A program made the translations under genes and the position numbers. The notes beneath the pieces are model-generated. The model saw only the letters and a list, made by a program, of their open reading frames with translations, was not told the DNA's origin and ran no database searches. This document shows, in pieces, positions 24,871-33,199 of a stretch of 64,000 nt of DNA. The first letter of the stretch is position 1. Each line of letters opens with the position of its first letter. Source of the DNA: Leptogranulimonas caecicola (GTDB taxonomy: Bacteria > Actinomycetota > Coriobacteriia > Coriobacteriales > Atopobiaceae); contig NZ_AP025285.1 in NCBI RefSeq assembly GCF_023168405.1, positions 742,001 through 806,000 of the forward strand, given 5' to 3'.

Positions 24871-27291
24871 ATGATCCTTGGCAGCAGCATCACCGCTGTC
24901 GATAAAGGTGACGGCCGTCTCAAGGCTTTCTCCGGGCTTACCACCGTCATCAAGATATTGTCTTTGGTGGATGACGCCATTGCAGGCTATGACTCCCATG
25001 GCAAGATCATCATCGCCAACGGCAACCTGGCTGAGTTGACAGGCCTTTCTCGGCAGCAATTGATCGGTATGGATGTAAGCACGCTCTTTCTGCCGCTTAC
25101 TGGCGTTCCTAAGACCCACGGGCGCCTGCCGTTTCCTTTAGACGGAGAAGAGACGCCGCTCCTTTGCCGCAAACCCAACCAAAACACCTGGACGCCGGTG
25201 CACGTGCGTGCCAAAGAGATGGGCGATGACGGCTCGTTTCTCATGGTAGCAAGGCCGTTTGTGGAAAAGTCTGTGTCGGGAGACGCCGGAGCAGTAGAGC
25301 CCGAGCTGGCAGTGCCGCACCTTTCGGCCAGCGACGTGCTGATCGACGCTGCGGTGGTGCCAGGCGAGGATCCGACCCCTTCGGGCATCGCAGTGAGCAA
25401 CGCCGATCTCTATCAGAGCGCAGACGCCCCCGATGACTCGGTGCCCAATGATGTGGTTCGTGTGATTCAGGAGATTGGACGCGCGGCAGACACCGGCAAT
25501 ACTTCCGGCGTGCATGACATGCTGGTGCGCGAGCTGCGCAGCGCGGTGGATGCCGATGCCGCGGCGCTCTATACGGCCGGTTATGGCGGCTATGTGTTCA
25601 AGAGCTTCTCGGGAAAGTTGGGCGGCTCCTCCATGCCCACGTTTGTGGAGGGCAAGAACGCGGTGGTCTCCATCGCCTCTTCCCGCGGGCGCACAGCGAG
25701 TTTCGACCGCGTGCGGCAGGATACTGGCGAGATCGCCCTGGTGGATTCTGCCACGGGCAAAACCTATGAGATATCTGGGGCAGAAAACTTCCCCCTTACC
25801 TCGTTTTATGTGGTGCCTATCATCTATAACCGCTCCACGGTGGCGGTGGCCGCGGTGGGGTGGACCACTCCCCACGGGTTGGGAGGACACTCGGCAAAAG
25901 TACTGGACATCTTGGCAGTCCATCATGCCAACGACCTGCTGACCGCCCAGGCACTGGCTCTTACCTCGGCAAGCGAGCGGGTGCAGGACGTGGCCCATGA
26001 GAACCTTATGCACCTCGAAGAGCTCGAAGACAAAGCCACTTTCCTAGACTATTGCCGCGCCTTCGAGGCCATGGCGCAGGCTATCAACTGCCGCTTTGCC
26101 CCGGTCTTCCGCAATTTGCATCAAAACACCAACTTCATCAAGAAGGCTGACGGCTCGTTGGTGGACTTCCCCTTCACCATCAATGATTTGGCAGACGACC
26201 GCACTGCCCCCGAGGTATATGTGGGCCCGTTCTCCCACCACAAGGAACTCTCAGACTGGCTTGCGCAAAATCATATCCAGCGCGATGGCTTCGTGGTGGT
26301 AGTTCGTCAGCTGCGAGAAGAGCGCAGGGCGTTTTTGGTGCTTTCGGACGTGTCGGACATTCCTCTGGGAAACCTGGAGATCACGCTGTACAAGCGCTTT
26401 GTGCAAGACGTCTTTCGCCAAGACCAGCTCCAGCGCCAGCGCATCCAAAACTCCCTCATCGCCCATACGCTGCAGCAGGGCATGGGAAATCACATGCAGC
26501 ATGTGCAGGGCTTATCGGCGCAGGCCGTGTATAACTCGGCTACCGAGAGTGCCAATGTGGGCGGCGACTTCTACGATCTTCTGCGCCTTGAGAACAACCG
26601 TGCCTGCATCATCTTGGGCGACGTGGCAGGCAAAGGCGTGCAGGCAGCCAGCGTGTCGGCGGCAGTGCGCACCGCTTTGGGCACCTATGTGTGGGAGGGT
26701 ATGGAGCCGGCGCATATGGTGCGTTCGCTCAATGACTTCTTCTTGGGATTTTCGCGCCTAGACTCTTTCGCCACCCTCTTTGTAGGCCTGCTGGATGTGA
26801 GGTCTGGTAAGCTCACCTACTGCTCGGCAGGGCATCCCCCGGCATTCCTGCTGCATCCCAAGGACAACCAGATGGAGCTCTTAAACGTGCAATCCGGCGT
26901 GGTGGGCGCATTCCGCGAGATGGTCTTCAAAGACGGCATCGTGCAGCTTGAGCCCGGAGACGAGCTGGTGCTCTATACCGACGGCGTTACTGAATCCCGC
27001 GATCCCTCCGGCATCTTCTTTGGCGAGACCGGTCTTCGCGAGACATTGGTGCGCGAGATGGACACGGACGTCCATGACATGGCAGACGCCATCATGAACA
27101 CCCTCTACGACTTTACCGGCGGCCGCCTGGACGACGACGTGGCTATCATGGCCCTGCGCTACAACGGATTGGATGACGCCCCTGAAGACGACTCTTCAGG
27201 CCTGGGCACGGAGGGCAAAGGCGCGGTGCTTGCCCCAAGCGAAAGCCACCAGAGTGCCCAAACTGGAGCCTCTGAAGGAGAGCAGCTGTGA
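24871..27291 (+). CDS. PAS-GAF-PP2C (SpoIIE/RsbU-type) serine phosphatase
   Basis: The protein has 806 residues, with GAGGAGA upstream of the ATG. A PAS domain lies at about 28-125 (AIAGYDSHGKIIIANGNLAELTG), then an acidic linker, a GAF-like sensor region at about 190-365, a second possible sensor region at 385-520, and a C-terminal PP2C phosphatase at about 540-770. Metal-binding aspartates are in VGGDFYDLL and LGDVAGKG, and YTDGVTES closes the site. Such enzymes dephosphorylate STAS anti-sigma-factor antagonists in partner switching. The STAS-HATPase fusion 1.3 kb downstream is a natural candidate partner, though no sigma factor is visible here. The last four bases overlap the CDF transporter gene. 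The dispersed motif core is embedded at 25046. Confidence 0.9.
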   Translation: MILGSSITAVDKGDGRLKAFSGLTTVIKILSLVDDAIAGYDSHGKIIIANGNLAELTGLSRQQLIGMDVSTLFLPLTGVPKTHGRLPFPLDGEETPLLCRKPNQNTWTPVHVRAKEMGDDGSFLMVARPFVEKSVSGDAGAVEPELAVPHLSASDVLIDAAVVPGEDPTPSGIAVSNADLYQSADAPDDSVPNDVVRVIQEIGRAADTGNTSGVHDMLVRELRSAVDADAAALYTAGYGGYVFKSFSGKLGGSSMPTFVEGKNAVVSIASSRGRTASFDRVRQDTGEIALVDSATGKTYEISGAENFPLTSFYVVPIIYNRSTVAVAAVGWTTPHGLGGHSAKVLDILAVHHANDLLTAQALALTSASERVQDVAHENLMHLEELEDKATFLDYCRAFEAMAQAINCRFAPVFRNLHQNTNFIKKADGSLVDFPFTINDLADDRTAPEVYVGPFSHHKELSDWLAQNHIQRDGFVVVVRQLREERRAFLVLSDVSDIPLGNLEITLYKRFVQDVFRQDQLQRQRIQNSLIAHTLQQGMGNHMQHVQGLSAQAVYNSATESANVGGDFYDLLRLENNRACIILGDVAGKGVQAASVSAAVRTALGTYVWEGMEPAHMVRSLNDFFLGFSRLDSFATLFVGLLDVRSGKLTYCSAGHPPAFLLHPKDNQMELLNVQSGVVGAFREMVFKDGIVQLEPGDELVLYTDGVTESRDPSGIFFGETGLRETLVREMDTDVHDMADAIMNTLYDFTGGRLDDDVAIMALRYNGLDDAPEDDSSGLGTEGKGAVLAPSESHQSAQTGASEGEQL
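25046..25055 (+). repeat. Dispersed motif core inside a coding region
   Basis: TTTCTCGGCA, in the extended form GCCTTTCTCGGCAGC, encodes GLSRQQ in the PAS domain. Confidence 0.8.
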
Positions 27292-28289
27292 GTGCCGCAG
27301 GCCTGAGCCGAGAAGAGCGCTGCCGCAAAGTGGTGCGAATCCTCTGGATCATCCTTATCCTCAACTGGGCAGTGGCGGCAGCCAAGTTCTTTTACGGCGC
27401 CGCTACAGGCTCGCTCTCCATGCGCAACGACGGCATTGCGAGCGCCTTTGACGGCCTGTCCAACATCGTGGGCATCCTGGGCGTCAAGATGGCCTCCCAA
27501 CCCCCTGACAAGGCCCATCCCTATGGCCACGCCAAGTTCGAGACCTATGCGTCGCTGGCTATCGGGGTCATGTTGGCGGTGGCTGCCTACAACCTCGCCG
27601 CCGACGGCATCCAAGCCCTTTTGGGCCACAGGAGCGCAGTGGAGGTTAACGGCGGCTCCTATGTGGTGATGGTGGGGACCCTCGTCATAAATCTAGCGGT
27701 CTCCTTTGTGGAGGGGCGCTTTGGCAAGCGTCTTGCCAGCGAGGTGCTTACCGCAGATGCCCTCCATACTCGCTCGGACGCTTTCGTCACCATATCGGTC
27801 ATCTTGGGCCTTGTGGCAGTGAGCTTGGGATATCCCATGGCTGACTCTTTGGTGGCTGTGATCGTGAGCGTCGCCATCGCCATTTCTGCGGTGGAAGTCT
27901 TTCGGGAGGCGGCTCGTACCCTCTCCGACCACGCGGTGTTGGAGGTCGAGCCGCTGCGCCAGGCGGCCTGTCAGGTGCCTGGCGTGCGCTCCGTGCACCA
28001 TATCCGCACCCGCGGCACTGAGGGCGACGTCTTCGTGGACCTCCATCTTCTGGTTGACCCAACCATGACGGTGGCACGCGCCCATCAGATCGCCCAAGAG
28101 GTAGAGCAGGCGGTGCAGCAGGGGTTTCCGGAAGTCTCCGATGTCATGGTGCACATCGAGCCCGACAATCCCCAAGAGCGCTCTGAAGGTTTGGCCGACG
28201 ATCGCGCGCTCGGCGTAGCATCTAAGGACTCCTCCACAGATGACGCGGCCACTCTTCCTGCCGAGAAGAGCGATCCTTCCTGCCAGTGA
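27288..28289 (+). CDS. Cation diffusion facilitator (CDF) family transporter
   Basis: The protein has 333 residues. Its GTG start overlaps the phosphatase stop as GTGA, so the two are translated together. Six membrane segments are followed by a cytoplasmic metal-binding domain from about 205. The conserved loop PPDKAHPYGHAKFE is present. The transmembrane metal site has HTRSD intact in helix 5 (His160, Asp164), but helix 2 reads NDGIASAFDGLSN, with Ala51 where a His, Asp or Asn ligand is usual. These proteins export Zn, Fe or Mn by proton antiport; the altered site leaves the metal open. A nonconserved tail of about 40 residues ends the protein. Confidence 0.9.
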   Translation: MSAAGLSREERCRKVVRILWIILILNWAVAAAKFFYGAATGSLSMRNDGIASAFDGLSNIVGILGVKMASQPPDKAHPYGHAKFETYASLAIGVMLAVAAYNLAADGIQALLGHRSAVEVNGGSYVVMVGTLVINLAVSFVEGRFGKRLASEVLTADALHTRSDAFVTISVILGLVAVSLGYPMADSLVAVIVSVAIAISAVEVFREAARTLSDHAVLEVEPLRQAACQVPGVRSVHHIRTRGTEGDVFVDLHLLVDPTMTVARAHQIAQEVEQAVQQGFPEVSDVMVHIEPDNPQERSEGLADDRALGVASKDSSTDDAATLPAEKSDPSCQ

Positions 28290-28308
28290 CTCGCTGCCTT
28301 GGGTAGGC

Positions 28309-28354
28309 GAGTTTCTCGGCAGCGAGAGGAACGTCTATGCCCAGCTGCCGAGAA
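28309..28354. repeat. Inverted pair of the dispersed motif (terminator-like hairpin)
   Basis: GAGTTTCTCGGCAGC at 28309 and GCTGCCGAGAA at 28344 form an 11-base perfect stem with a 20-base loop, starting 20 bases after the CDF gene. A further variant, TGCCGAGAAGAG, lies at 28259 inside that gene. The remainder of 28290-28630 is AT-rich, without a gene that I can see, and should contain the promoter of the STAS protein. Confidence 0.8.
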
Positions 28355-28630
28355 GGAATAATTTCAGGAAGCTATAAGAAATAATGTGCATTACAGTGAA
28401 TGTGGGTTCTACAGGCGGGTATCAGAAACCCATATCAACGTTGAATATGCTTTCTCAAAACAATGGTAACAAACGCCAGGTTTTTGGACATATATTCACC
28501 GCTGGAATTATATATAAACGCAGGTTAATGGATTAATAGGTTAACAGTTGCCTACTTAATTCTCTCCCTAAAATTGGGGATGCCTGTGTAGAGACATCTC
28601 GCGTCTGGCACAGCTACGAAAGGGGAGAGC

Positions 28631-29404
28631 ATGCTTATCGTCTCAGACTGCATGATGGTTCCCGTTCGTTCTGATATCAGTGTGAGGACGGCTCCAGAGC
28701 TTAAAGACCATATCGAAGAGCTTATGAACGGCGGCTGCCATCGCATCATCTTGGATATGGACAAAGTTGGCTATATCGATTCGGCAGGCATTGCGCTCAT
28801 CCTGTCGCTCTCTCGCAAGATGCGCGCTATGGGTGGTCTGTTGACCTTGGTGAACGTCTCAGAGATGGTAAACCATATTTTGAGCGTAGGATGCCTGGTC
28901 CCCTTCATTCCTTGTTTGGCGAAACAGTCGTCAAAGGCTGCGGTGCCCGCATTGCCGGTGGGTTCCAAGCCGTCAAAGCGTCTTACGGTTCGCATCGAGC
29001 CAGATACCCTCCAAGATGCGCGAGAGCGCTTGCGCGAGTTTTTGGAGGTGCTGCCTCTGTCCAGCAGCGAGCTCTATGACATCATCTTGGCTGCCGGCGA
29101 GGCTATGGGCAACTGCGTGCTTCATACAGATTCGGGCATCGGCTATCTTACCTGCGCCCTCTATCCTGACCGTTTGGTGATGGAGGCGGTGGACAGCGGG
29201 CCTGGGTTCGAGATCGCCCCGGATGTCGACCCCGTGGTGACTCTGGAGCATGGGCGCGGCATCAAGATCATGCGCCTTCTATGCGACGACGTTGAGATCA
29301 AGAAAAAGCCTGTGGGCCATGGCACCATCGTGCGGCTGGTAAAGATGCTGCAGCAGGGCGCTGAGCCACTGGAAAAAGGCATGTTTGAGATTCTTTCTGC
29401 CTAG
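28631..29404 (+). CDS. STAS - HATPase fusion (anti-anti-sigma joined to anti-sigma-type kinase)
   Basis: The protein has 257 residues, after GGGGAG. Residues about 1-95 are an STAS domain with the phosphorylatable serine in KVGYIDSAGIALILS (Ser51). A linker at 95-115 leads to a GHKL ATPase domain at about 115-245. That domain has the N-box in AAGEAMGNCVLH (Asn161), the G1 box DSGPGFE and the G2-like EHGRGIKIMRLLCDD. In partner switching these are normally separate proteins: the antagonist (RsbV) is phosphorylated by the kinase (RsbW). Here both are in one chain, so self-phosphorylation is possible. No sigma factor lies next to it. The PP2C phosphatase upstream could reset the serine. Confidence 0.87.
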   Translation: MLIVSDCMMVPVRSDISVRTAPELKDHIEELMNGGCHRIILDMDKVGYIDSAGIALILSLSRKMRAMGGLLTLVNVSEMVNHILSVGCLVPFIPCLAKQSSKAAVPALPVGSKPSKRLTVRIEPDTLQDARERLREFLEVLPLSSSELYDIILAAGEAMGNCVLHTDSGIGYLTCALYPDRLVMEAVDSGPGFEIAPDVDPVVTLEHGRGIKIMRLLCDDVEIKKKPVGHGTIVRLVKMLQQGAEPLEKGMFEILSA

Positions 29405-29604: not shown

Positions 29605-29681
29605 TGGTAGCCCGTACCAGATTCGAACTGGTGATCTCCGCCTTGAGAGGGCGGCGTCCTGAACCGCTAGACGAACGGGCC
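29605..29681 (-). tRNA. tRNA-Glu (CTC), second copy
   Basis: The reverse strand reads GGCCCGTTCGTCTAGCGG at the 5' end, anticodon loop CTCTCAA (anticodon CTC), T-arm ACCAG-TTCGAAT-CTGGT, and acceptor ACGGGCT with discriminator A and an encoded CCA (29605-29607). The first acceptor pair is G-U. It is identical to the copy 111 bases upstream in the transcript. Confidence 0.96.
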
Positions 29682-29715
29682 ATAAAAATGGGGCAGGGAG
29701 CCCCAGGGAAAAGCG

Positions 29716-29792
29716 TGGTAGCCCGTACCAGATTCGAACTGGTGATCTCCGCCTTGAGAGGGCGGCGTCCTGAACCGCTAGACGAACGGGCC
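29716..29792 (-). tRNA. tRNA-Glu (CTC), first copy
   Basis: The sequence is identical to the neighbouring tRNA-Glu over the full gene and CCA. About 34 bases separate the two. It probably belongs to one transcript with tRNA-Gln. Confidence 0.96.
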
Positions 29793-29804
29793 ATAACCCA
29801 AGAA

Positions 29805-29878
29805 TGGCTGAGCCAGAGAGAATCGAACTCCCATTGACGGAACCAGAATCCGCTGTCCTACCGTTAGACGATGGCTCA
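29805..29878 (-). tRNA. tRNA-Gln (CTG)
   Basis: On the reverse strand the acceptor arms TGAGCCA/TGGCTCA, the anticodon loop TTCTGGT (anticodon CTG) and the T-arm GGGAG-TTCGATT-CTCTC are visible. Discriminator G and an encoded CCA are present. Confidence 0.95.
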
Positions 29879-29941: not shown

Positions 29942-30110
29942 GCCTAAATTGGTCCAATAAGGCAATTTGGTGCAGGTTGTGAAGGCGCCTGCACAACCGT
30001 CACGGTTTTGTCGTGGGGTCTTAGCAGTTGCCCCTAGGCCTTGGAGCCAAGATGGCCATAATCCTATAACAGCTTGGTATTGGGTGGCGCGGGTTGCAGA
30101 AGGGAGGGCT

Positions 30111-31727
30111 ATGGAAGAGCAAGAGAATAGGTCGAGTCACCCTCCTTTGGATGAGGGGAGCTCCGCTGCTTCCAATCTACAGCCCTCTACTGACTCCTCC
30201 AACACTCCTGAAGGCCCCTCTCTTGAGGCTCTGGAGCTGTTGGAGCAACCGCTGGAAGACGCCCTAGGCTTCTTTGACATCCCAACATCAGAGGGTACAC
30301 CCTCCTCCAAGGAGCCTGCCGCTCAGGTTCCTCCAGAGCCCGGCTCTACGGCTCCTTCCTCTTACCCTGTCCCATCCACCCCTGAGCAGCCAACTGCCGA
30401 TGCAGGGGTTTCTCGGCAGCGAAAAAAACCAGCCAACCTCAAGATAGGGGTTGCGGGAGCCAGGCATCACAGGTCGCAAAAAGCTTCCTCTACCAATGCC
30501 TATGCGGCAGCAGCTGGGGCTCGCAAGGCCTCGGGTGCCCAGAAGCCCGCACCTCAGGGGGTGGCGGGTTCAAGGACCAAGGCGTCGGTGTCCAAGAAGA
30601 CAGTCGGGCCAAAGACCCGCGTGGGGCAAGAGGAGAGCCAGGACCAAAAGAAGGCGCGCAAAGGCGCGCTGTTTATGGTGGGCGTGCTGGCTGCCTACGC
30701 GCTTTGGATCTTCATGAGTGGCCAGTTCGACGAGTTCGTGGGTGCGCTCAACGGGGCCGATGCAGGCTGGTTTGTAGCCGGCATGCTGGTCATGAGCTTC
30801 AACTTCGTCTTTGGCGCCCTGGCGTTCGTGCTGGCAGCCTATATCGATCCTACGAGTCCTTTGGGCGTGCGCGACTGCATGTCGGTGGAGGCAAACGGCG
30901 TGCTCTTTGGCAATCTCACGCCCATGAGCACGGGTACCATGCCGGCGCAGATCTATAGGCTCACCCAGGCGGGCTTGGATGTGGGGGCGGCTTCTGCCAC
31001 GCAGCTCACGCGTTTTGTGATCTACCAGGCTGGCGAGGTAGTAGTAGCTGCAACACTGTTGCTGCTGCGCTTCGACTTCTTCTTGCACACCTATGGAGAC
31101 ATCGTCTTCTTGAATATTGTGGTGTTTATCATTCAGACGCTCCAGGCCGCAGGCCTGCTGGTGGTCTGCCTGTTCCCGCGCTTTGTGACCCGTGTGGGCA
31201 ACTGGGGTCTAAGGTTTGCCAGCCGCCATGGGTGGTTTAGTGCAGAGCGCGTAAAGCGCTACTCCGACGTGCTCAACAACCAGGTGCGTTCCTTTGGCGG
31301 CACCTTCCGCGACTCCTTCAGGCACATGGGCTCGCTGGCCCTTACGCTTCTGGTGACCTTGGGCCAGATGCTCTGCTTTTACGCGGTGCCCTGGTTTGTG
31401 CTCCGCGCGTTTGGCGGCGACGCAGATTTTGTCACCTGTCTCGCCGCAGCTTCCATGGTGCAGATGATTGGCAATTCTGTGCCGCTTCCCGGTGGCACCG
31501 GTGGCAACGAGGCCGGCTTCGCGCTGTTCTTTGGCCCCATTTTTGGCGCTGCCGCTACTGCGGGCTTCATCGTATGGCGCCTCATCACGTTCTTCATCCC
31601 TACGCTGGCTGCCTTCCCGCTTATGGCGTTGAGCTCGTCGCATAACAAGTCCATTTATCAGCGCTGGCAGCATTTTCGCACGCGCAAGGGCAGGCGCGCC
31701 CAGGTGTTCGTCTCTCGCAAGAAATAG
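30111..31727 (+). CDS. Lysylphosphatidylglycerol synthase transmembrane-like protein
   Basis: The ATG at 30111 follows GGGAGGG and gives 538 residues. Residues 1-215 are low-complexity, rich in Ser, Pro, Ala, Gln and Lys, and probably disordered. About eight membrane segments follow from residue 218, with the family signature NSVPLPGGTGGNEAGFALFF near the C-terminus. This membrane domain (UPF0104, the flippase-like part of MprF) occurs without the lysyl-transferase domain in many bacteria; the substrate is unknown, probably a lipid. A paralogue faces it on the opposite strand. A full dispersed motif lies in the disordered region at 30406 and encodes GVSRQR. Confidence 0.87.
   Translation: MEEQENRSSHPPLDEGSSAASNLQPSTDSSNTPEGPSLEALELLEQPLEDALGFFDIPTSEGTPSSKEPAAQVPPEPGSTAPSSYPVPSTPEQPTADAGVSRQRKKPANLKIGVAGARHHRSQKASSTNAYAAAAGARKASGAQKPAPQGVAGSRTKASVSKKTVGPKTRVGQEESQDQKKARKGALFMVGVLAAYALWIFMSGQFDEFVGALNGADAGWFVAGMLVMSFNFVFGALAFVLAAYIDPTSPLGVRDCMSVEANGVLFGNLTPMSTGTMPAQIYRLTQAGLDVGAASATQLTRFVIYQAGEVVVAATLLLLRFDFFLHTYGDIVFLNIVVFIIQTLQAAGLLVVCLFPRFVTRVGNWGLRFASRHGWFSAERVKRYSDVLNNQVRSFGGTFRDSFRHMGSLALTLLVTLGQMLCFYAVPWFVLRAFGGDADFVTCLAAASMVQMIGNSVPLPGGTGGNEAGFALFFGPIFGAAATAGFIVWRLITFFIPTLAAFPLMALSSSHNKSIYQRWQHFRTRKGRRAQVFVSRKK
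30406..30420 (+). repeat. Dispersed motif, full match, inside a coding region
   Basis: GGGTTTCTCGGCAGC lies in the part of the gene that encodes the disordered N-terminal tail. Confidence 0.85.
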
Positions 31728-31906: not shown

Positions 31907-33199
31907 TTAATCATCGAGCCGCTTCACAAGCCTGCGCAGGCGCTGGCGCAGGGTAGGGGCGCTGTCAGGCGTGCGCACGAGCGTGGCGGCTCCGCAAAGG
32001 GCGGTGTAGAGGTAGTAGGTCACCAAGCGCCACAGGATATAGCCGGCAGCGGCCGTCGATCCCATCCAAGGGGCAAAAAAGGTGGCGAAGGAGGCTTCGA
32101 TGCCGCCGGTGCCACCGGGCAAAGGAATGGCGCTGGCCAAGAGCTGCACCATTGATCCTGCGCAGACCACCAGCCAAAAGTCCACCTGAATGTTCAAGGC
32201 CTGCAGCACAAACCAAGGGGAGCAAAAGATGCAGAACTGTTGCAGGACGGACACCACAAGCATACCCAGCATGACCCACTTGTGCCTCACTGCAGCCTTA
32301 AAGGTGGTGGAGAACTGAGTCACCTGGTTAGAGATGGCCTTCGACCAGCCATCGGCTTTGATCCCCATCCCAAACAGGTCGCGCCTTTTTATCCATCCAC
32401 ACAGCCGCTCGCCCAGTCTGGCCACCCATTGAGGACGCAGGCACATCACCAGCAGTGCCATGGCCTGGATGAGCTTGAATCCAAAGACAGCCACGTTGAT
32501 CCACACCACGGCTCCGTAGTGGCTGAAGAAGTAGGGCCAGTTGCACAGCAAAAGACCACCTGCGAGAAGGATCTCCGCTGCTTGGAATAGCAAAAAACGG
32601 TTGATCTGCACTGCGGTGGCCGAGCCAAAATCCAGCCCTGCCTCCAGCAGGCGCCAGATCTGCCCGGGCACCGAGCCGGCCATCATTGGCGTGAGGTTGC
32701 CAAAGAAGGTGCCGGCTGCCTCCACCGACACCAGGTCCAAAAAGCCCACAGGCGCCTTGCGCGCGATAAGGGTTTCCAGCACAAACGCCAGGGTGCCAAA
32801 GAGCAAGTAGAGGCCCATGACTCCTACCATGGCCAGCATCCACACCAGCTTTGCCTGGTCCAGCGCCTCCCTAAAGGATTGGCCCTGTCCCGACGCTTCG
32901 ATATACGCCAGGCTCACTATCAGCACCGCTGCCATGAACAGGCCGCCAATGACGGCCTTGCGCGTGTTGGAGCGGGCGCGTGCCTTGGAATCTGCGGCGT
33001 CTTTGCCGCCAGTGAGTTCGCCTAACGCCTCTAGAGCCTCGCCTTTGGTGGAATAGTCGATGGTATCGAAGGCGTTCAGCGGGGGCTTATTGGCGGCATC
33101 CGCCTCCTTGGGTTCCTGCCGAGAAGAGATTGCGCTTGCATCAGGCGCTTGTGCCGCAGGTGCCGCGTTGGAGGTTGAACGTGAAGGGATCGAGGCCAT
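31907..33199 (-). CDS. Lysylphosphatidylglycerol synthase transmembrane-like protein (paralogue)
   Basis: The protein has 430 residues. Residues 1-80 are a hydrophilic, probably disordered leader; about eight membrane segments then follow the same plan as in the convergent gene. Shared motifs include the segment FGNLTPM(M/S) with a downstream Pro-x-Gln-Ile, and SAIPLPGGTGGIEASFATFF near the end. The two genes point at each other with 179 bases between their ends, so they are an inverted duplicated pair. A variant of the dispersed motif, read on the coding strand as TCTTCTCGGCAGG near 33118, encodes SSRQE. Confidence 0.87.
   Translation of the reverse strand: MASIPSRSTSNAAPAAQAPDASAISSRQEPKEADAANKPPLNAFDTIDYSTKGEALEALGELTGGKDAADSKARARSNTRKAVIGGLFMAAVLIVSLAYIEASGQGQSFREALDQAKLVWMLAMVGVMGLYLLFGTLAFVLETLIARKAPVGFLDLVSVEAAGTFFGNLTPMMAGSVPGQIWRLLEAGLDFGSATAVQINRFLLFQAAEILLAGGLLLCNWPYFFSHYGAVVWINVAVFGFKLIQAMALLVMCLRPQWVARLGERLCGWIKRRDLFGMGIKADGWSKAISNQVTQFSTTFKAAVRHKWVMLGMLVVSVLQQFCIFCSPWFVLQALNIQVDFWLVVCAGSMVQLLASAIPLPGGTGGIEASFATFFAPWMGSTAAAGYILWRLVTYYLYTALCGAATLVRTPDSAPTLRQRLRRLVKRLDD

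Follow-up and report, generated by a model that had tools for sequence, protein, structure and literature searches.

A fused RsbV-RsbW-like protein as a candidate intramolecular partner switch for a SigB-type sigma factor in Coriobacteriia

Partner switching is usually explained as a competition among separate proteins, in which relative amounts are important. The window analysed here, a stretch of 64,000 nucleotides from the 2.0 Mb genome of Leptogranulimonas caecicola, raises the question of how such a switch may operate when the competitors are one protein. It encodes a chain in which an anti-anti-sigma (STAS) domain is followed by an anti-sigma kinase (HATPase_c_2) domain. Two opponents in a bacterial stress switch, the inhibitor of a sigma factor and the antagonist that lifts the inhibition, would then be parts of a single protein. 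In our reading, the gene probably arose by fusion of an rsbV-rsbW (spoIIAA-spoIIAB) pair and encodes an anti-sigma module, complete in itself, for the SigB-like sigma factor of this genome, and the PP2C phosphatase encoded upstream would trigger the release of sigma.

The open reading frame of the fusion starts with ATG, with AAGGGGAG a short way 5' of it. The first-pass annotation, made from the sequence, had recognized a STAS domain with Ser51 and a GHKL ATPase with Asn161 and a DSGPGF motif in the same protein, and both Pfam and the alignments agree with this assignment (Table 1). The matches to PF01740 and PF13581 are above the curated cut-offs of Pfam, and the STAS half also passes the TIGR00377 threshold (61.7 bits, cut-off 53.45). 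In the structure model of the fusion (mean pLDDT 90.1, pTM 0.75), the N-terminal half resembles STAS antagonists with Z scores of 12-15, and the C-terminal half resembles SpoIIAB and RsbW with Z scores of 15-16. The best folds for the kinase half are SpoIIAB (1th8, Z 15.8; 1l0o, 15.7), UsfX (8ih8, 15.6) and RsbW (6m36, 15.3), and the structures matched include the UsfX-RsfB (8ih8) and SigF-anti-sigma (8jzt) complexes. By these similarities, each half of the model has the expected fold. A phmmer search of the PDB with the kinase half alone gave no significant match, whereas a profile search did. The fusion is not classed as an orthologue of SpoIIAB or RsbW in the strict sense, because its scores for the NCBIfam equivalogs are far under the cut-offs (TIGR01925, 33.6 bits versus 135; PRK04069, 26.1 versus 145).

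Table 1. Features of the fusion gene, its surroundings and the candidate sigma factor gene. Positions are those of the window unless a contig is given.
Feature	Position	Strand	Basis or remark
PAS-GAF-SpoIIE/PP2C phosphatase, presumed Ser51-P phosphatase and signal input	24871..27291	+	PF07228 E 3.4e-47, PAS, GAF
CDF cation-efflux gene between PP2C and fusion	27288..28289	+	PF01545 E 1.7e-39
Intergenic stretch 5' of fusion	28290..28630	.	consensus scan
STAS-HATPase_c_2 fusion gene, RsbV/RsbW-like in one chain	28631..29404	+	257 aa
STAS domain, anti-anti-sigma half, residues 4-94	28640..28912	+	PF01740 E 3.9e-17; TIGR00377; structure match
Ser51, predicted phosphorylation site, SpoIIAA Ser58 / RsbV Ser56 position	28781..28783	+	alignment; invariant 40/40
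Inter-domain linker, about residues 98-115	28922..28975	+	domain ends
HATPase_c_2 domain, anti-sigma kinase half, residues 123-238	28997..29344	+	PF13581 E 8.7e-15; structure match residues 114-241
Arg131, SpoIIAB Arg20 / RsbW Arg23 position (partner contact)	29021..29023	+	spacing; invariant
N box, Glu157 (catalytic base) to Asn161 (Mg2+ ligand), roles per SpoIIAB	29099..29113	+	invariant 40/40
G1 box DSGPGF, residues 188-193	29192..29209	+	D188, G190, G192 invariant
G2 box GRG, residues 208-210	29252..29260	+	invariant
SigB/SigF/SigG-type sigma gene	G000:C1:1296571-1297407		profile match

Conservation was judged from an alignment of 40 orthologues of several families, which are 29-63% identical to the protein of the window. 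The invariant positions include D50, S51, G53, R131, D150, E157, N161, D188, G190, G192, G208 and G210. Correspondences to SpoIIAB, RsbW and RsbV were taken from pairwise alignments and residue spacing. Asp50-Ser51 is aligned with 1th8, and the column of Ser51 holds serine in the wild-type SpoIIAA of this structure and alanine in the 1tid construct. A phosphorylatable serine after an aspartate is present, as in proteins of the RsbV/SpoIIAA type. In the kinase half, Arg131 and Glu157 are 26 residues apart, like Arg20 and Glu46 of SpoIIAB, and the spacing of Glu157 and Asn161 equals that of Glu46 and Asn50. The catalytic base of SpoIIAB is Glu46, its Mg2+ ligand is Asn50, and its Arg20 makes contact with the partners (PMC10345196). 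With the required residues intact and invariant, the fusion is predicted to be competent for self-phosphorylation, which, owing to the tethering, would likely take place within the same molecule or the kinase dimer. A degenerate fusion, with an inactive kinase that is locked by the tethered STAS domain, appears highly improbable. It would fit the presence of His207, in the subclade of the window, at the position of SpoIIAB Arg105, a residue credited with stabilising the transition state (33 of the 40 orthologues have arginine), and a loss of kinase activity has been reported for Rv1364c, according to the title of reference 219 in PMC9138534. Against it, all 40 sequences keep the remaining catalytic residues, and the phosphosite is also invariant across the class members and outgroups compared.

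The contact residues point to the preferred reading of a fused antagonist and kinase pair as well. In the RsbV-RsbW structure, Arg23, Asp42 and Glu49 of RsbW contact Asp23, Arg84/Arg87 and Ser56 of RsbV (PMC7340262). The counterparts in the fusion are R131, D150 and E157 on the kinase side, and S17, position 82 and S51 on the STAS side. Position 17 is serine in the protein of the window and aspartate in 33 of the 40 orthologues, and position 82 is basic in 38 (Arg, Lys or His). D15, which is Asp or Glu in 38 of the 40, is the counterpart of RsbV Glu21, for which a clash with sigma has been described (PMC7340262). As the matching positions are kept, both STAS-kinase contact faces appear to be retained within one chain. 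Lys41 of SpoIIAB, which has been reported to contact sigma, has no conserved counterpart.

The fusion is widespread. A search for the same domain order in other genomes had been proposed in the first-pass annotation, and the order indeed recurs, with full-length fusions in 102 of 150 relatives and in 123 of 159 genomes of a class-wide set (completeness at least 85%). The presence in 102 relatives rules out an assembly or frameshift artefact as the origin of the fusion. The protein of a close relative (G001) is 98% identical, and named matches include Olsenella, Atopobium, Thermophilibacter, Tractidigestivibacter and Collinsella.

An orthologue of the PP2C gene is found in all 102 relatives with the fusion, and in 92 of them it lies directly upstream on the same strand, mostly with the matched regions separated by 44 to 260 nt. 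In the window, the PP2C gene, which the first-pass annotation had placed 1.3 kb upstream, ends 1.34 kb 5' of the fusion, and the CDF gene that lies between them overlaps its end by 4 nt. The order PP2C-CDF-fusion is also present in L056, L057 and L075, and in L060 from a different family. The CDF gene intervenes in some lineages only, and may have adjoined the switch ancestrally. In L195, which belongs to a different part of the class, the PP2C protein has HAMP and GAF domains instead. Between the CDF and fusion genes, no consensus promoters or terminators were found, and the predicted fold of 28280-28350 is ordinary (z -1.3).

Which sigma factor could be controlled? The genome contains only two genes with sigma-70 region 2. 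The one in a 458-aa reading frame is taken as the primary sigma factor. The other encodes a 278-aa SigB/SigF/SigG protein (279 bits, cut-off 234), the sole alternative sigma-70 factor of the genome. Its gene is about 525 kb distant from the fusion, which is located at 770631 of the genome. The arrangement thus differs from a Bacillus-type SigB/SigF operon, in which the sigma gene lies beside the anti-sigma gene, and no sigma gene was found to adjoin the fusion in the class members examined. The compact two-gene switch without a local sigma factor that had been suggested earlier stands as far as the conserved unit of PP2C and fusion and the lack of a nearby sigma gene are concerned, but a switch without any sigma partner is not favoured. 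The sigma locus has its own conserved setting, as the order rarA, DUF, sigma, AI-2E transporter, alaS is syntenic in almost all of the 20 genomes that were read, two of them from outside the taxonomic order.

The fusion is the one HATPase_c_2 protein over the cut-off in the genome. Two proteins with a STAS domain are encoded, and a single SpoIIE-type phosphatase, as the other PF07228 match is a PP2C of the PrpC type in a PASTA-kinase locus that also has FHA and FtsW genes. With one HATPase_c_2 protein and one alternative sigma factor, there is a single candidate anti-sigma kinase and a single candidate sigma factor. The second STAS protein is free-standing, has 112 aa and an intact IDS motif, and is encoded beside tatAC-like genes (L043:6907-7245, minus strand; about C1:1839906-1840244). 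It may serve the fusion as an additional substrate or input. Alternatively, the fusion could be a kinase without sigma binding of its own, which phosphorylates its STAS domain and perhaps the free-standing one, while an unrecognised anti-sigma factor sequesters sigma. There is a precedent in Mycobacterium smegmatis, where RsbW2 phosphorylates RsfB and does not bind SigF, whereas RsbW1 does (PMC7693655), and second STAS matches are common across the class. The conservation of Arg131 and Asp150 is no proof of sigma binding, because their counterparts contact the STAS partner (PMC7340262). We nevertheless regard this alternative as unlikely, since the genome has no other HATPase_c_2 protein over the cut-off to act as the anti-sigma factor, and since it is the fusion itself that co-occurs with sigma almost perfectly.

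Among the 150 relatives, 99 have both the fusion and the SigB/SigF/SigG-type sigma gene, 43 have neither, and 8 are discordant. In the class-wide set of 159 genomes, the respective numbers are 120, 34 and 5. The discordant relatives include one with the PP2C gene at a contig end (G023), one with a partial sigma gene at a contig end (G061), and four incomplete assemblies (G076, G083, G088, G108); in the class-wide discordant genome G517, the kinase match is cut by a contig end. Fisher's test gives p of about 1e-28 for the co-occurrence, a value that ignores shared ancestry, and independent losses are few, because the absences are confined to family f2 and a few others.

For some STAS/kinase partner switches the target is not a sigma factor, and the co-occurrence could then reflect shared ancestry only. 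The sigma gene is indeed not beside the fusion, and the structural matches include SiaB and LvrC, kinases that are not described as anti-sigma factors. The clearest exception to the co-occurrence, G047 (98% complete, two contigs), retains PP2C and the fusion, yet its assembly contains no SigB-type sigma gene, and the conserved sigma neighbourhood was not found at the four contig ends or in the 290-680 kb region of contig 2. Even so, a non-sigma target seems decidedly unlikely. The fusion, PP2C and the SigB-type sigma are jointly present in several families and jointly absent in f2 and others, and in an outgroup locus (L189) a SigB-type sigma gene is found next to STAS and kinase genes. The earlier idea of a switch towards another target is therefore not favoured, as there is one SigB/F/G-type sigma elsewhere in the genome, and both components are present in 120 of the 125 class-wide genomes with at least one of them.

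Outgroups to the class suggest how the fusion arose. In the phylum sample, stop codons intervene in the listed matches that span both domains and come from more distant actinobacteria, outside the class. Five such loci were read, and all have separate STAS and kinase genes, with the STAS gene first and gaps of 3 to 15 nt in four cases and 33 nt in the fifth. In L189, the SigB-type sigma gene precedes the STAS and kinase genes, and its product is 51% identical to the sigma factor of the L. caecicola genome. A tree of 24 sequences sets the split outgroups apart from the fused proteins (outgroup support 0.94 with L189 and 0.99 without it). The simplest reading is that an rsbV-rsbW pair fused once, in an ancestor of the class, and that the sigma gene stood apart.

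For a fused switch that acts on this sigma factor, the following cycle can be proposed, with phosphotransfer (within the chain or across a dimer), sigma binding and the PP2C substrate inferred from the Bacillus and mycobacterial systems. The fusion would fix the stoichiometry of STAS and kinase domains at 1:1. While PP2C is inactive, the kinase domain would transfer phosphate from ATP to Ser51 of the STAS domain, in the same chain or in the dimer partner. The phosphorylated STAS domain would release the kinase, which could then keep the single SigB/SigF-like sigma factor off RNA polymerase. Upon a signal, the upstream PAS/GAF-PP2C protein would be activated and remove the phosphate from Ser51, so that the tethered STAS domain could dock again on the kinase and displace sigma, which would be free. 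Once the signal is over, the kinase would reset the switch. The SigB-type motif G[GT]TT-N13-19-GGG[TA]A[TAC] was present upstream of 0 of 20 sigma, 2 of 18 fusion and 1 of 13 PP2C genes; as these counts fall within the range of shuffled sequences, there is no sign of autoregulation.

In the Bacillus RsbV-RsbW/SigB and SpoIIAA-SpoIIAB/SigF systems, the operon order equals the domain order of the fusion, and phosphosite, catalytic and contact residues are the same. A SpoIIE-type phosphatase and a SigB/F-type sigma factor in the genome are further shared traits. In contrast to the fusion, the Bacillus components are two separate proteins, with the sigma gene in the same operon. The mycobacterial UsfX/RsbW1, RsbW2 and RsfB belong to an actinobacterial SigF partner switch, and the kinase half is matched by structures of the UsfX-RsfB and SigF-anti-sigma complexes, but they are separate proteins, and M. 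smegmatis divides the kinase and anti-sigma roles between RsbW2 and RsbW1 (PMC7693655). M. smegmatis RsbW3 was considered as a candidate for an already known STAS-kinase fusion and rejected, as its only description is that of an RsbW homologue of 194 aa (PMC7693655).

The nearest tested precedent is Rv1364c of M. tuberculosis, which is linked to SigF, and whose STAS domain is phosphorylated by its own kinase and dephosphorylated by its own phosphatase (PMC7693655; PMC9138534). As in the fusion, an RsbW-like kinase and a STAS domain are joined in one chain, with a PAS-PP2C partner. However, Rv1364c has four modules in one chain (PAS-PP2C-kinase-STAS) with the kinase before STAS, whereas here there are two chains, with STAS before the kinase and PP2C encoded by a separate gene. 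Moreover, Rv1364c has been described as confined to pathogenic mycobacteria, whereas the present unit is conserved across a class. No description of a fused RsbV-RsbW protein or of SigB regulation in Coriobacteriia was found in the literature searched, which is no proof of absence.

Taken across the class, the evidence leans somewhat towards an intramolecular partner switch, in which the antagonist never leaves its anti-sigma partner, the two are present at 1:1, and a single tethered serine, on which PP2C and kinase act in opposition, decides whether a SigB-type sigma factor is free. If true, such a switch would be the control point of this sigma factor in most Coriobacteriia sampled, including Collinsella and the Atopobiaceae. 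The conserved fusion of both competitors would also allow a test of whether partner switching can operate when the stoichiometry is fixed and the substrate tethered. Sensor PP2C, fusion and sigma together form a concrete and complete candidate pathway for the sole alternative sigma-70 factor of the genome, and common gut bacteria are among the members of this lineage.

Directly 3' of the fusion gene, the minus strand of the window carries two near-identical tandem tRNA-Glu(CTC) genes and one tRNA-Gln(CTG) gene (29605-29878). They are followed by two convergent genes (29967-31727 and 31907-33199) for apparently related multi-pass membrane proteins, both of which contain the motifs FGNLTPM and PLPGGTGG.
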